Positions 60,807 through 64,000 of a stretch of 64,000 nucleotides of DNA are shown here, in pieces; position 1 is the first letter of the stretch; each line of letters begins with the position of its first letter. The stretch is from the NCBI GenBank assembly GCA_018242295.1, contig JAFECE010000008.1, positions 48,314 to 112,313 on the forward strand, given 5' to 3'. The notes under the pieces are model-generated. The model was not told where the DNA came from and ran no database searches. It saw nothing but the letters and a program-made list of their open reading frames with translations. Both the position numbers and the translations under genes were made by a program. Source of the stretch: Pseudomonadota bacterium. GTDB taxonomy: Bacteria; Pseudomonadota; Alphaproteobacteria; Rhizobiales; Hyphomicrobiaceae.

Positions 60807-60881
60807 GCTCCCTTCGTCTATCGGTTAGGACGTCAGATTTTCAATCTGAAAAGACGGGTTCGACTCCCGTAGGGAGCGCCA
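60807..60881 (+). tRNA. tRNA-Glu (anticodon UUC)
   Basis: Complete cloverleaf with encoded CCA. The acceptor stem GCTCCCT (60807-60813) pairs with AGGGAGC (60871-60877). The anticodon arm TCAGA-TTTTCAA-TCTGA has TTC at 60840-60842. The T-arm ACGGG-TTCGACT-CCCGT is at 60854-60870. Discriminator G then CCA end at 60881. It serves as the integration target of the element to its right. Confidence 0.97.
60854..60881 (+). other. predicted left attachment site (tRNA 3' end)
   Basis: The T-arm and acceptor 3' half of tRNA-Glu is a favoured attB core of tRNA-targeting tyrosine integrases. The integrase gene ends 53 bases away and points at the tRNA. The matching right copy (attR) would lie beyond the window; no second copy of this segment is seen inside it. 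Exact core boundaries are not determinable here. Confidence 0.5.
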
Positions 60882-60925
60882 TACCTGTCATCAGCGCAAG
60901 CAATTTCAATGTGTTAGGCGCGAAT

Positions 60926-60954
60926 TTGGCTAGCTAGGTAGTTTCGCTAGCCAA
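60926..60954. other. perfect inverted repeat at the integrase 3' end
   Basis: TTGGCTAGC (60926-60934) and GCTAGCCAA (60946-60954) form a nine-base-pair stem with an 11-base loop, straddling the integrase stop codon. It may be an mRNA 3'-end structure or an integrase accessory site near the attachment point. Confidence 0.45.
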
Positions 60955-62025
60955 TTTTGTTTGAGCTTCGTTCTCATTCGCGCTGGACGGGATCGAAGCC
61001 ATGGCCGTCTCGGCCGCCTTCTCCTTGTTGAAGTCGCGAATGTAGCGCTCGATGACGACGATGCTCTGGCCGGTGATCGCGGAGATTTGCTGCGGCGTGC
61101 AATCTCCATCCGTCAGGCGACGACACATGGCCTTCCGGAGCCCGTGCGGTGAGCGATTTGGTGGCAGACCAGCGTCGCGTGCCGCTTCGATGATGAAGTT
61201 CGTGAACGCTTTCTCTGAACGGGCCGCGCCGTACACCGTCGACAGGTAGACCAAATGATTGTGGAGCCCGGCGATGTGAGGCTCTAAGTCGGGGTGTACC
61301 GGGATGTAGACCGTCACCGTCTCACCGCTCTTGCGTAGATTGACGATGTGCCGGTTGCCGTCACGATGCTGCGGCCCAAGCTTCACGGCATCTGCGCGAC
61401 GCAATCCGGTGTTGAGCAGAATTTCGAGGGCGAGGCGTTGCGGCGTACCCTTGGCCCAATGGGCGCGATACTTCGCGATGTCCGCTTCGGTCCAGGGCTT
61501 CCAGCCCTTAGCCTTGTACTTGATCTTCGGTGCGAGCCGGGCGGGGTTATCTTTGCGGTAGCCATTGAGCACGGCCAAGTCGAGAAGCATAACCAGCCGC
61601 TTCCGCATCGTGTGGGCCTGTGGTTTCGACTCGGCAACGATCGGCTTTAAGATCACCTTGTCGATGATCTCCGGGGTCAGGCCAGCGACTGAACGGTCTC
61701 CATAACTGTTGCGAAGTCGCTCAATGAGGCTGCGATAACTGGTCTTGGTTGCGGCGGCGAGACCCGTGAATGCGGACGAAGCGTAGTAATCGGCGATCAA
61801 TGCTCCCATGCTGCCGGGTTTCGTTTGCTTCGCGCCGATCTCAGATTTTGCAATCGATTGCAAAGGGGCCGCCACCGCTTCGTGATAAGCAGTCCAAAAT
61901 TCCTTTGAGAAAACGGGGCCGGGCAGAGGAATTTTCTTGCGACCGGGCAAGCGAAGATAGATGCGCCGCTTGCCACGGTTGTCCGTGAAATCGTGGACGT
62001 ACTTAGGAAGCTTGAGGCGTGCCAT
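60934..62025 (-). CDS. tyrosine-type site-specific integrase
   Basis: Phage/ICE integrase of 363 residues. The N-terminal SAM-like core-binding domain covers about residues 70-170 (LIADYYASSAFTGLAAATKTSYRSLI-type). The catalytic domain has Arg in LNTGLRRADAV (I), HGLRKAM (H-x-x-R box) and the nucleophile Tyr in VIERYIRDF. ATG 62025 (ARLKLPKYVHDF) is chosen; the frame opens 16 codons earlier. The gene is oriented towards tRNA-Glu, as in elements that integrate at tRNA 3' ends, and overlaps the upstream small gene by 23 bases. Confidence 0.93.
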   Translation of the reverse strand: MARLKLPKYVHDFTDNRGKRRIYLRLPGRKKIPLPGPVFSKEFWTAYHEAVAAPLQSIAKSEIGAKQTKPGSMGALIADYYASSAFTGLAAATKTSYRSLIERLRNSYGDRSVAGLTPEIIDKVILKPIVAESKPQAHTMRKRLVMLLDLAVLNGYRKDNPARLAPKIKYKAKGWKPWTEADIAKYRAHWAKGTPQRLALEILLNTGLRRADAVKLGPQHRDGNRHIVNLRKSGETVTVYIPVHPDLEPHIAGLHNHLVYLSTVYGAARSEKAFTNFIIEAARDAGLPPNRSPHGLRKAMCRRLTDGDCTPQQISAITGQSIVVIERYIRDFNKEKAAETAMASIPSSANENEAQTKLASETT

Positions 62026-62215
62026 TGAGCAGGTCATCCCAATCGTCAGCAGGTTCGGGCTTCTTCGCGGCATCTAGGTCTGCGCGACACACGACGCGAA
62101 AGCCGCTATCGTCCGAGCAATGTTTGACGTAGGCCACATCCTTGCCTGCTGCCTCTACGGCAGTGACGAGGTACTTCACGTCAGACTGCGTGTAGTTCCG
62201 CTTCTTACGCGGCAT
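62003..62215 (-). CDS. small element-borne protein of unknown function
   Basis: A 70-residue protein: PRKKRNYTQSDVKYLVTAVEAAG, then VAYVKHCSDDSGFRVVCRADLD and an acidic tail. The frame opens at 62371 but MPRKKRNYT at 62215 is the likely start. It overlaps both the preceding gene (by 11 bases) and the integrase. Its basic N-terminus and small size would suit a recombination directionality factor, but that is only a guess. Confidence 0.6.
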   Translation of the reverse strand: MPRKKRNYTQSDVKYLVTAVEAAGKDVAYVKHCSDDSGFRVVCRADLDAAKKPEPADDWDDLLNGTPQAS

Positions 62216-62591
62216 CGGGCTCAATCCCCCAATCGGCTTTAATCCCGGCATCCGCTTCGGCGTGGCTCTCGGCCATGCACTGTGCAAACTCTTGGGCGTG
62301 GCGTCGATATTCAGCAGGCGAATTGCAGAAGCGTAGAAGCTCCTTGACCAGTTCGAGAACTTCGTCGGCAACTAACTCCGCGCTGCTATCAATCAAAACT
62401 TCGCTGCCATAAGCAAGGCTGTAAACGTCAGCACCCCAAACATCCTTGCCTGCCACGTACGCGATAAAACCGAACTCGGCGATGGCCGCTATTTCTGCCT
62501 TAGACTGGCGATCATATTTCGCCAAATCATCTTCAAGCTGTTTGAGCAGCCGTTCGGCCTTTACTTGCTTCAACTCGATGACGTTGCTCAT
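62205..62591 (-). CDS. element-borne hypothetical protein
   Basis: A 128-residue acidic, helical protein starting SNVIELKQVKAERLLKQLED and including GKDVWGADVYSLAYGSEV. No recognised domain. Its ATG overlaps the stop of the 66-residue gene (ATGA), so the leftward operon is tightly coupled. Confidence 0.6.
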   Translation of the reverse strand: MSNVIELKQVKAERLLKQLEDDLAKYDRQSKAEIAAIAEFGFIAYVAGKDVWGADVYSLAYGSEVLIDSSAELVADEVLELVKELLRFCNSPAEYRRHAQEFAQCMAESHAEADAGIKADWGIEPDAA

Positions 62592-62791
62592 CACGCAGCC
62601 TCCGACATATCAACGTAGACGATGCGAGCATTGCCGAGCTTCTTGAGAAGTTCGAAGCCGCGCGACCACGCCTTAGAGCGGCTCGTGAAAAGTTCCGATT
62701 TTGCGCCATGCCCAACGGTGTAATGACCGCGTGTGTGTTTGATGATCTTTATGTTGATCGGCCCCATCGTGCCGTCGCGCGTGCTTCTCAT
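62591..62791 (-). CDS. small element-borne hypothetical protein, first of the leftward operon
   Basis: A 66-residue basic protein (MRSTRDGTMGPINIKIIKHTR, then HGAKSELFTSRSKAWSRGFELL). The open frame reaches far upstream, but AGGAG five bases before ATG 62791 decides the start. Its alternating strand pattern recalls DUF1508-like small domains, weakly. It lies just downstream of the operator cluster and is divergent from the Arc-type repressor. Confidence 0.6.
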   Translation of the reverse strand: MRSTRDGTMGPINIKIIKHTRGHYTVGHGAKSELFTSRSKAWSRGFELLKKLGNARIVYVDMSEAA

Positions 62792-62830
62792 TTTTACTCC
62801 TGACAAGAAATGTACTTGGCGACCGTGCCA

Positions 62831-62880
62831 TATCCAGGATACTATCCCCGGGATAAGATTGAGGCAATATCCCTGGGATA
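62831..62880. promoter_or_regulatory. three-palindrome operator cluster with overlapping divergent promoters
   Basis: Three palindromes share the half-site TATCC: TATCCAGGATA (62831-62841), TATCCCCGGGATA (62843-62855) and TATCCCTGGGATA (62868-62880). Their centres are 13 and 25 bases apart. Leftward promoter: TTGCCT (62862-62867), 17 bases, TAGTAT (62839-62844). Rightward promoter: TTGGCG (62816-62821), 18 bases, TACTAT (62840-62845). The two -10 elements overlap almost completely under operators 1 and 2; operator 3 lies four bases before the repressor ATG. Confidence 0.75.
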
Positions 62881-62884
62881 ACCA

Positions 62885-63142
62885 ATGGCAAAAAAGGTTA
62901 AGGATGCGAGAGTTCGTGAGGGAGAACAGATACTTATACGCTTTCCGCCCGGCTCCGATTTGCGGTCGAGACTGGACGCGGAAGCTAAGGAAAATGGCCG
63001 CCGAACTACGGCTGAAGTGATCCATCGGCTTGAACAAAGTTTCAAGAAGCCGACGTCCGCTGAAGACGTCCGAGAGATTGCCTACCGCATTGAAGGAAGA
63101 GTGCAGGACTTGCTGAGAGCGCTCAATTCTTTGAAGTCGTGA
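62885..63142 (+). CDS. Arc-family ribbon-helix-helix repressor
   Basis: An 85-residue DNA-binding protein. The N-terminal half parallels phage P22 Arc. The DNA-contacting strand is Q15-I-L17-I-R19 (Arc has Q9, N11, R13), followed by helix A and AEAKENGRRTTAEVIHRLEQSF (residues 32-53; Arc has AEENGRSVNSEIYQRVMESF). A helical tail (58-83) may aid oligomerisation. No strong Shine-Dalgarno precedes the ATG; GGGA of operator 3 would serve. It probably represses itself and the integrase operon. Confidence 0.88.
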   Translation: MAKKVKDARVREGEQILIRFPPGSDLRSRLDAEAKENGRRTTAEVIHRLEQSFKKPTSAEDVREIAYRIEGRVQDLLRALNSLKS

Positions 63143-63210
63143 CGACGCGGTAGCGGGCTCGGAGCAAACCAACGAGCTTGCTCACGCAGAACAGCAAGCT
63201 GAAAAAGAAA

Positions 63211-63234
63211 AACCCCGCATTGGCGTGCGGGGTT
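63211..63234 (-). terminator. GC-rich terminator hairpin within the element
   Basis: AACCCCGC (63211-63218) pairs with GCGGGGTT (63227-63234). The run GAAAAAGAAA on its left gives TTTCTTTTTC after the stem on the minus strand, so it is a strong leftward terminator. On the plus strand only TT follows. It would insulate the Arc gene and switch region from leftward transcription entering from the rest of the element. Confidence 0.65.
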
Positions 63235-63330
63235 GAAATCTCACGCCGGTCGCGTCGGCGTTACGTAGTAGTCGGAATGCTGTCTACGTATCATCGACTG
63301 CGGCCGAACACAATTGGAGTTGTTCGACGC

Positions 63331-63942
63331 ATGTCGCGTTACACGGAGAAAATAATCAAGCTCGTTGAGCAGGGCCTGCATGAGTCGCCGTGGCCCTACG
63401 ACGGCGCTGTTTGGGTCGCCGCGCCTCAAGACGATTGGGCGGCAGAGTTAGGTTGCTCGACTAGGACGTTTCGAAGCATCATCAGCAAACCGCCCTTCGA
63501 TACAGCTCGCACGGTGGTCAACGGTAAAACAGTTTGCCTCGTCCGTATCGGAGAGCCGAGACCCAAGACGCCACGCCATCTCGCGAACATCATGGCGAAG
63601 ATGTTTCTGGCGAAGACCGGGAAAGTCGTCAGCCGCCACAACTTCGGTTGCTTGGTAGGATGCGCCGAACTGTGGCCCGCCGACTGCGCGATTGAAATTT
63701 TCAAATGCGTGCTCGCGAACTGGGGGCCGTTCGCGGGCTGCGCAAAAGACGTGCTGTACGTGACCGACAAGCTTGCAGGGAAGAAGCCTCGCACCAAGGA
63801 ATGGTTCTACGAGTTCCCGTGCTTGTCGTTCCTTCGTAAGGCGCACGGTGTGGCGGTCGATTTTTACATCATGGAAGCGCAGCACGCGGGCAAGGTTCTT
63901 CCGCCTTCGTTGGCGAATTGGAATGCCCCAGACGTGCTCTGA
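63331..63942 (+). CDS. element-borne protein with helix-turn-helix-like N-terminus, function unknown
   Basis: A 203-residue soluble protein. Residues 25-60 include DDWAAELGCSTRTFRSIISKPPF, which reads like a winged-helix recognition region. The rest (HLANIMAKMFLAKTGKVVSRHNFGC, then WPADCAIEIFKCVLANW and WFYEFPCLSFLRKAHGVAVDFY) is helical. The layout resembles small replication or regulatory proteins of integrative elements, but I cannot name a family. The start at 63331 follows GGAG at 63316-63319; the frame opens at 63178. Confidence 0.6.
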   Translation: MSRYTEKIIKLVEQGLHESPWPYDGAVWVAAPQDDWAAELGCSTRTFRSIISKPPFDTARTVVNGKTVCLVRIGEPRPKTPRHLANIMAKMFLAKTGKVVSRHNFGCLVGCAELWPADCAIEIFKCVLANWGPFAGCAKDVLYVTDKLAGKKPRTKEWFYEFPCLSFLRKAHGVAVDFYIMEAQHAGKVLPPSLANWNAPDVL

Positions 63943-64000
63943 CCGATTGCTTCCGAACGCATCTAAGATCGATACAGTATATAAGGATATAAGGGTGTAA
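63943..64000. other. AT-rich end of window, probable promoter of a following gene
   Basis: The last 58 bases hold TATATAAGGATATAAGG, a marked AT-rich run with two purine-rich AAGG segments, unlike the surrounding coding DNA. It is likely the leader of the next element gene, which lies beyond the edge. Confidence 0.3.

Follow-up and report, generated by a model that had tools for sequence, protein, structure and literature searches.

The closest precedent for the locus described here is the gap between mnt and arc of phage P22, in the mnt/arc-ant region that we take to be the one named immI. In the P22 record, overlapping annotated divergent promoters and both operators lie together in this gap, arc and ant are on one promoter, and the prophage repressor c2 is found elsewhere. 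The recognition strands of the two repressors read Q-F-N-L-R in Arc and H-F-N-F-R in Mnt. A second described system is Pseudomonas AmrZ. According to the AmrZ report (PMC3325190), AmrZ represses its own gene, and its crystal structure on amrZ1 holds a ribbon-helix-helix (RHH) dimer of dimers on 5'-GGC half-sites, with a 5-bp linker between the 3-bp cores. Lys18, Val20 and Arg22 read the half-sites, with Lys on two G and Arg on the G opposite C. The same report states that Mnt tetramers are stabilised by the C-terminal domain. Aligned by spacing, residues 18/20/22 of AmrZ correspond to Arc positions 9/11/13.

The locus that we compared with these systems lies in a 64-kb stretch of DNA, called the window below, and in contig C4 of the same genome. 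The features in the window are as follows.

60807..60881, + strand: tRNA-Glu; its 3' end (60865-60881) is one copy of a 17-bp repeat, putative attL/attR
60934..62073, - strand: tyrosine-recombinase integrase, closing the leftward operon; possible alternative start at a later ATG about 51 bases inside
62003..62215, - strand: leftward gene 3, 70 aa; 72% identical over 67 residues to a gene of the G045 relative
62205..62594, - strand: leftward gene 2, 129 aa; 60% identical to a gene of the G045 relative
62591..62791, - strand: leftward gene 1, 66 aa; AGGAG upstream, no family match
62816..62845, + strand: weak rightward promoter-like match, TTGGCG-18-TACTAT (8/12)
62831..62841, no strand: palindrome 1, TATCCAGGATA, TATCC-A-GGATA; half-sites 6 bp apart, non-canonical
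62839..62867, - strand: weak leftward promoter-like match, TTGCCT-17-TAGTAT (8/12)
62843..62855, no strand: operator 2, TATCCCCGGGATA, TATCC-CCG-GGATA; canonical 13-bp site
62868..62880, no strand: operator 3, TATCCCTGGGATA, TATCC-CTG-GGATA; canonical 13-bp site
62885..63142, + strand: Arc/Mnt-family RHH repressor gene, 85 aa; recognition strand Q-I-L-I-R
63178..63942, + strand: ORF of 254 aa, 3' of the repressor gene; a later start is likely
63966..64000, no strand: exact 35-bp overlap with the start of contig C4, on which the prophage continues

The element is a compact prophage of about 20.3 kb. The 17 bp at the 3' end of the tRNA-Glu gene, TCCCGTAGGGAGCGCCA, recur at C4:17196-17212. The window's contig ends at 64000, with its last 35 bases equal to the first 35 of C4, and the prophage measures 20,313 bp if the two contigs adjoin. 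Besides the repeat and the integrase, it has genes on C4 for portal, S78 protease, phage capsid, connectors, large terminase and a tape measure protein with an M15 peptidase domain. The whole (window 60865-64000 plus C4:1-17212) is a very small prophage of the tailed-phage type, and its large terminase gene stands behind the head and connector genes, not before the portal. Of the prophage ORFs, 26 were scanned with PHROGs and 16 of these also with Pfam (small ORFs covered only in part); neither a repressor-type HTH protein nor an antirepressor was recognised, and several of the 26 have no family match. For the 254-aa ORF, Pfam gave nothing at E 1 and PHROGs a single weak match (E 0.03), and it shows no similarity to the ORF in the corresponding position of the G045 prophage.

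The sequence-only reading had set a leftward operon ending in an integrase against a rightward RHH gene, and we found both, in divergent orientation. Within the leftward operon, starts overlap the preceding stops down to the integrase. The gap between the operon and the 85-aa RHH gene (62792-62884) is only 93 bp, and the operon starts 39 bp from palindrome 1. The locus resembles P22 immI in having divergent genes, operators in the same gap (O_mnt and O_arc in P22) and Arc/Mnt-family repressors. By contrast, P22 has two RHH repressors and an antirepressor, whereas the window has one RHH gene that faces an integrase operon. A terminator-like hairpin for leftward transcription is located just 3' of the repressor gene (63211-63234); three such hairpins were found in the stretch against 1.6 expected.

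The earlier assignment of the 85-aa protein to the Arc family is supported by a PF03869 (Arc) score of 27.2 bits against a cut-off of 20.4. Over 385 genomes of the organism's class, 8 had a match to this Pfam family, its own included. In alignments, the strand of the protein carries Gln, Leu and Arg at Arc positions 9/11/13. Matches to PDB sequences were weak (permuted Arc, E 5e-05; Mnt, 0.045; AmrZ, 0.16). The monomer model (pLDDT 84.5) shows the pair of helices of the RHH fold and a long C-terminal one, with helices at 26-36, 41-52 and 59-84, and DSSP calls no strand in it. Foldseek against the PDB placed Arc first (probability 0.99, E 0.14), and its top matches were mostly Arc and AmrZ, with probabilities up to 1.00 and E values of 0.14 or worse. 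Judged by the long C-terminal helix of the model, the protein seems to resemble Mnt at least as much as Arc.

Three palindromes with TATCC/GGATA half-sites had been noted within 50 bases, and all of them are present there. This 50-bp block holds 6 of the 72 TATCC/GGATA words of the window. The genome of 4,047,835 bases has three exact TATCC-N3-GGATA sites, of which the block holds two, and two exact TATCC-N-GGATA sites, of which palindrome 1 is one. In dinucleotide shuffles of the window, the mean number of one-mismatch matches was 0.61 (13-bp form) and 0.50 (11-bp form). In the rest of the prophage, the sites most similar to operators 2 and 3 have two mismatches in ten, and there are four of them.

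The further claim that all three are Arc-type operators holds for two of them. Operators 2 and 3, with centres 25 bp apart, each consist of two inverted 5-bp half-sites whose starts are 8 bp apart, as in Arc/Mnt/AmrZ-type sites. O_mnt of P22, which contains GTCCA-N3-TGGAC, has the same 13-bp geometry, and so does the AmrZ-DNA crystal structure (PMC3325190). By contrast, the half-sites of palindrome 1 start 6 bp apart. This is the sole such case among the 93 loci with a confident operator pair in the survey below, and in none of the 92 others does the locus's own half-site occur at 6-bp spacing. Isolated 11-base palindromes are not unusual upstream (72 in 205 loci), and the window is unique in using the locus's own half-site there. 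The block therefore reads as two canonical operators plus one odd element, palindrome 1, which may supply a single extra half-site or be a relic. Operator 3 had been placed at the start codon of the repressor gene; it does end 4 bases before the ATG at 62885, with the qualification that palindromes 1 and 2 also lie upstream of that gene.

The promoters are less clear. Opposing -10 hexamers had been proposed to overlap at 62839-62845, and they do overlap there, but each promoter reaches only 8/12. No promoter was found at 9/12. At 8/12 the gap contains five hexamer pairs (two rightward, three leftward); among 500 shuffles, 1.6% reach five pairs and 20.6% have pairs in both directions.

The survey of the family drew on viral contigs scanned with domain alignments, on searches of genomes and on records of phages and plasmids, which together gave 372 loci (some fetched twice). 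These provided 347 domain rows with readable strand positions and, after removal of similar upstream regions, 205 loci, P22 arc and mnt included; rows gapped at the strand positions were dropped, as were near-duplicate upstream regions. The viral scan with query A9 kept 80 loci, all at least 85% identical to P22 Arc, which were left out of the counts. No relatives were found in the 13 stretches from the viral scan with the single 85-aa protein or in the 48 stretches from that with query A3. A genome-contig scan of 159 stretches gave one match, which was rejected, its frame reading as a multihaem cytochrome.

A perfect h5-N3-h5' site lay upstream in 118 of the 205 loci, compared with 32.6 in shuffles (10 rounds) and 40 of 202 downstream stretches. 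At least two upstream 13-bp palindromes sharing a half-site were present in 93 of the 205 loci (2.3 in shuffles, 5/202 downstream), and at least three in 60 (0.2 in shuffles, 0/202 downstream). In 175 loci collected earlier, there were 141, 151 and 128 upstream arm-5 inverted repeats with spacers 1, 3 and 5, respectively, where shuffles gave about 29. Spacers 7, 9 and 11 were also raised, 10 and 12 less so, and even spacers 0-8 were near background. Since odd spacers are enriched and even ones from 0 to 8 are near background, the upstream sites have a single-base centre. The loci with at least two sites at spacers 0 to 8 numbered 5, 89, 7, 93, 9, 72, 11, 37 and 10, respectively, among the 205. 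Spacers 1, 3 and 5 represent registers of a single palindrome, from which we chose spacer 3 on the basis of the geometry of O_mnt and AmrZ. A confident operator pair in the 13-bp register was absent in 112 of the 205 loci, 37 of which have a pair in the 11- or 15-bp register (19 at spacer 1, 20 at spacer 5, two at both).

The 93 confident loci carry two operators in 33 cases, three in 52, four in 7 and five in 1. Their commonest operator spacing is 24-26 bp, and that between operators 2 and 3 of the window is 25 bp. More generally, most spacings fall into clusters at around 16, 25 and 35 bp, and a lesser group is found at 49; the steps of about 10 bp between the clusters suggest a helical-phase constraint between operators. 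In 128 exact half-site pairs the starts are separated by 8 bp, a count that is partly built in because the caller demands this spacing, and in one pair, palindrome 1, by 6 bp. A crude ORF count of the gene layout gave 15 divergent only, 16 co-directional only and 62 ambiguous loci. In five phage records (L406, L407, L411, L416, L419), from phages of several hosts, the layout is P22-like, with an antirepressor-type gene and a short Arc gene leftward and a longer Arc-type gene rightward. Loci L532 and L530 are divergent RHH gene pairs with one common operator array.

The confident loci allowed us to relate the residues at strand positions 9, 11 and 13 to the half-site. The combinations found among the 93 loci are given below with their half-sites and the share of loci that agree.

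Q-R-R: CCCCA, 9/9
Q-K-R: xACCA, 5/5
Q-H-R: TACCA, 2/2
R-T-R: CACCA, 4/4
Q-N-R: xAGCA, 6/6
Q-P-R: AATCA, 3/3
K-V-R: TGGCx, 13/13
K-I-R: TGGCx, 11/12
K-L-R: TATCG, 3/4; the fourth is ATCGA within TATCGA
R-I-R: TGCCx, 5/5
R-M-R: TGCCx, 4/5
K-M-R: xGTCx, 7/9
Q-M-R (7 loci) and Q-V-R (4 loci): mixed half-sites
Single loci: Q-L-R (the window), TATCC; Q-Q-R, TATCC; H-R-R, ACGCA; Q-I-R, TGCGA; Q-T-R, CATTA

These combinations suggest a rule for Arc/Mnt repressors in which Arg13 would go with C at base 4 of the half-site and residue 9 would mainly set base 2 (mostly G with Lys or Arg, mostly A with Gln). Residue 11, together with residue 9, would set base 3: C with Lys, His and nearly all Arg, G with Asn and most Val, and T with most Leu and Met and with the few Pro and Gln. 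The K-V-R row agrees with AmrZ, whose Lys-Val-Arg reads GGC (PMC3325190). AmrZ, a host regulator, differs from the window, where Gln-Leu-Arg goes with ATC. The P22 Arc half-site has A2 and G3 as Gln-Asn predicts, but A at base 4. It had been suggested that Leu in place of Asn11 fits a different operator, and the survey bears this out: while all six confident Gln-Asn-Arg loci have xAGCA, five of the seven dereplicated Leu11 loci (window included) have a perfect TATC-type 13-bp palindrome upstream. Of the other two, L023 has TATCGA-N3-TCGATA and L160 has neither a TATC-type nor a TATCGA palindrome upstream. This count demands perfect palindromes and is stricter than one of the short, common TATC/GATA words. 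The Q-L-R strand of the window, with its TATC, fits the residue-base pattern.

The tie of residues 9 and 11 to the operator is a statistical one, and how much the strand residues add beyond relatedness was quantified in several ways. A Fisher value, for which the groups had been picked with the table already known, was set aside. Pairs of loci 40-60% identical outside the strand have 4.24 of five bases in common if residues 9 and 11 agree (62 pairs) and 2.14 if they do not (1843 pairs). Leave-one-out prediction from relatives less than 70% identical was right for base 2 in 64/70 and for base 3 in 56/70 cases, compared with 24/93 and 21/93 for the commonest base alone. Base 4 is C in 85/93 confident loci, and residues 9 and 11 predict it no better than always choosing C; nor do they predict base 5 (31/70). 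At 20-40% identity outside the strand, the four pairs with the same residues 9 and 11 had no more bases in common than the rest. Relatedness contributes to the base 3 signal, because one column from outside the strand reaches z-scores in the shuffles as high as those of residue 11.

With the prediction fixed beforehand, small held-out sets gave 1/1 (17 phage loci) and 2/4 (65 genome loci), or 3/5 in all; a further 10 phage loci, at least 8 Lys-Val loci among them, and 34 genome loci were without a confident operator. The 2/4 of the second set was reached in 352 of 2000 shuffles. One of the two misses lacks Arg13, and the operator array of the other is common to a divergent Gly11 gene, as noticed after the fact. 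The loci with pairs at spacer 1 or 5 only were compared by hand with the rule as fixed beforehand, the core being defined by the common centre, and 24 of the 29 locus-register tests with a prediction agree (misses: L268, L232 in both registers, L210 and L160); since the rule was built from relatives of theirs, they lend support and are not an independent test. Among the matches listed, no residue-base rule for Arc/Mnt repressors was found in the open-licence literature. Comparable codes or residue-site correlations are reported for the LacI, MerR and IclR families.

Two relatives of the locus bear on what belongs together in it. Among 103 genomes of the organism's family, three (its own included) match the repressor at E 0.001, and the closest ortholog, in the same genus, is 55% identical. 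Upstream of its gene lies GTATATCCCATGGATATAC, which contains TATCC-N3-GGATA. This is one of only three such sites in that 4.2-Mb genome, and the only one at the locus, compared with two in the window. On the leftward side the neighbour is a gene of 103 aa; on the rightward side an HTH_17 gene is followed by a different integrase (Phage_integrase, 72.5 bits). The window's integrase has no match in that genome at E 1e-40. Since these neighbours differ, operator and repressor travel together without the window's integrase. The second relative is the G045 prophage of the same genus (locus L023, G045:C1:2026000-2044000), which keeps the divergent layout together with a related integrase (55% identical), two leftward genes (60-72%) and the portal (C4; 90%). 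It differs in its tRNA-Met site, in its first leftward genes and in its RHH protein, which has a K-L-R strand and a TATCGA palindrome upstream, scores above the TraY and below the Arc Pfam cut-off, and is not alignable with the 85-aa protein by BLASTP. By one count the G045 integrase has two stops in the matched stretch, yet an open 346-aa frame is listed.

The sites and their geometry, the tie of the half-site to the repressor type, the divergent genes and the prophage, as read from sequence and comparison, suggest how the locus may work. Quite probably, the adjacent Arc/Mnt repressor of this compact prophage has its operator array in the 50-bp block, and binding shuts both the repressor's own promoter and that of the leftward integrase operon. 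Most likely, every half-site would be bound by one dimer, and operators 2 and 3 would carry two dimers apiece. Binding would shut the promoter of the repressor gene itself, which amounts to autoregulation; since the divergent gap measures only 93 bp, it would also shut the promoter of the integrase operon. If the promoters proposed earlier are right, operator 2 would touch both -10 regions, and operator 3 would flank the leftward -35 and follow the rightward start. One repressor could then shut both directions, and repression of both promoters is likely. Loss of the repressor would lead to excision or induction. As the RHH-operator unit of the ortholog adjoins a different integrase, we infer rather than read off an excision/lysogeny switch, which is nevertheless plausible.

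That same ortholog, with its different integrase and different leftward gene, is what one would expect if the repressor used its operators for simple autoregulation only, the integrase operon being under its own control and no lysogeny/excision switch existing. Many family loci are also not clearly divergent (15 of 93 divergent only). Nevertheless, the 93-bp gap and a leftward start 39 bp from palindrome 1 mean that the operators probably overlap the leftward promoter, and the G045 prophage keeps the same divergent layout, so that we regard autoregulation alone as unlikely. Somewhat more credit is due to the possibility that the main lysogeny repressor is another, unrecognised protein and that the RHH protein is an early Cro-like regulator co-transcribed with the genes to its right in the manner of P22 arc and ant, although we still hold it doubtful. 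The repressor gene is indeed first in a rightward block, with the 254-aa gene behind it; P22 arc and ant share a promoter, with c2 elsewhere; and a 271-aa leftward ORF without family match (C4:15204-16019) looks winged-helix-like by eye. Against this stands the scan of 26 prophage ORFs, small ones covered only in part, which recognised no repressor-type HTH, with the reservation that several ORFs had no family match.

Two further explanations concern the palindromes themselves. Their distance to attL is about 2 kb at most and that to the integrase gene 0.8 kb, so they might be recombination arm sites for the integrase or an excisionase. We rejected this as very improbable: the attachment repeat is 2 kb away at 60865-60881, the RHH gene keeps this half-site next to another integrase, and many RHH genes of the family have such palindromes upstream. 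Chance palindromes, for which one could cite the one-mismatch matches to each pattern that turn up in shuffles of the window, were rejected as next to impossible on genome rarity and the ortholog site, two of the genome's three exact 13-bp sites being 25 bp apart here and the ortholog having one too.

The operator array of an adjacent Arc/Mnt repressor thus remains our preferred reading, and the locus is a clear example of an RHH repressor that appears to control a compact prophage. Its arrangement is of a known kind, and the residue-base rule is of more interest than the locus itself. We put forward, with less than even confidence, that a readable natural rule exists for Arc/Mnt repressors and that small prophages like this one use a single autoregulated repressor with its operators as the whole lysogeny switch instead of CI/Cro. 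If the rule is true, the operators of many uncharacterised phage repressors would be predictable from sequence, and the predictions would be directly testable.
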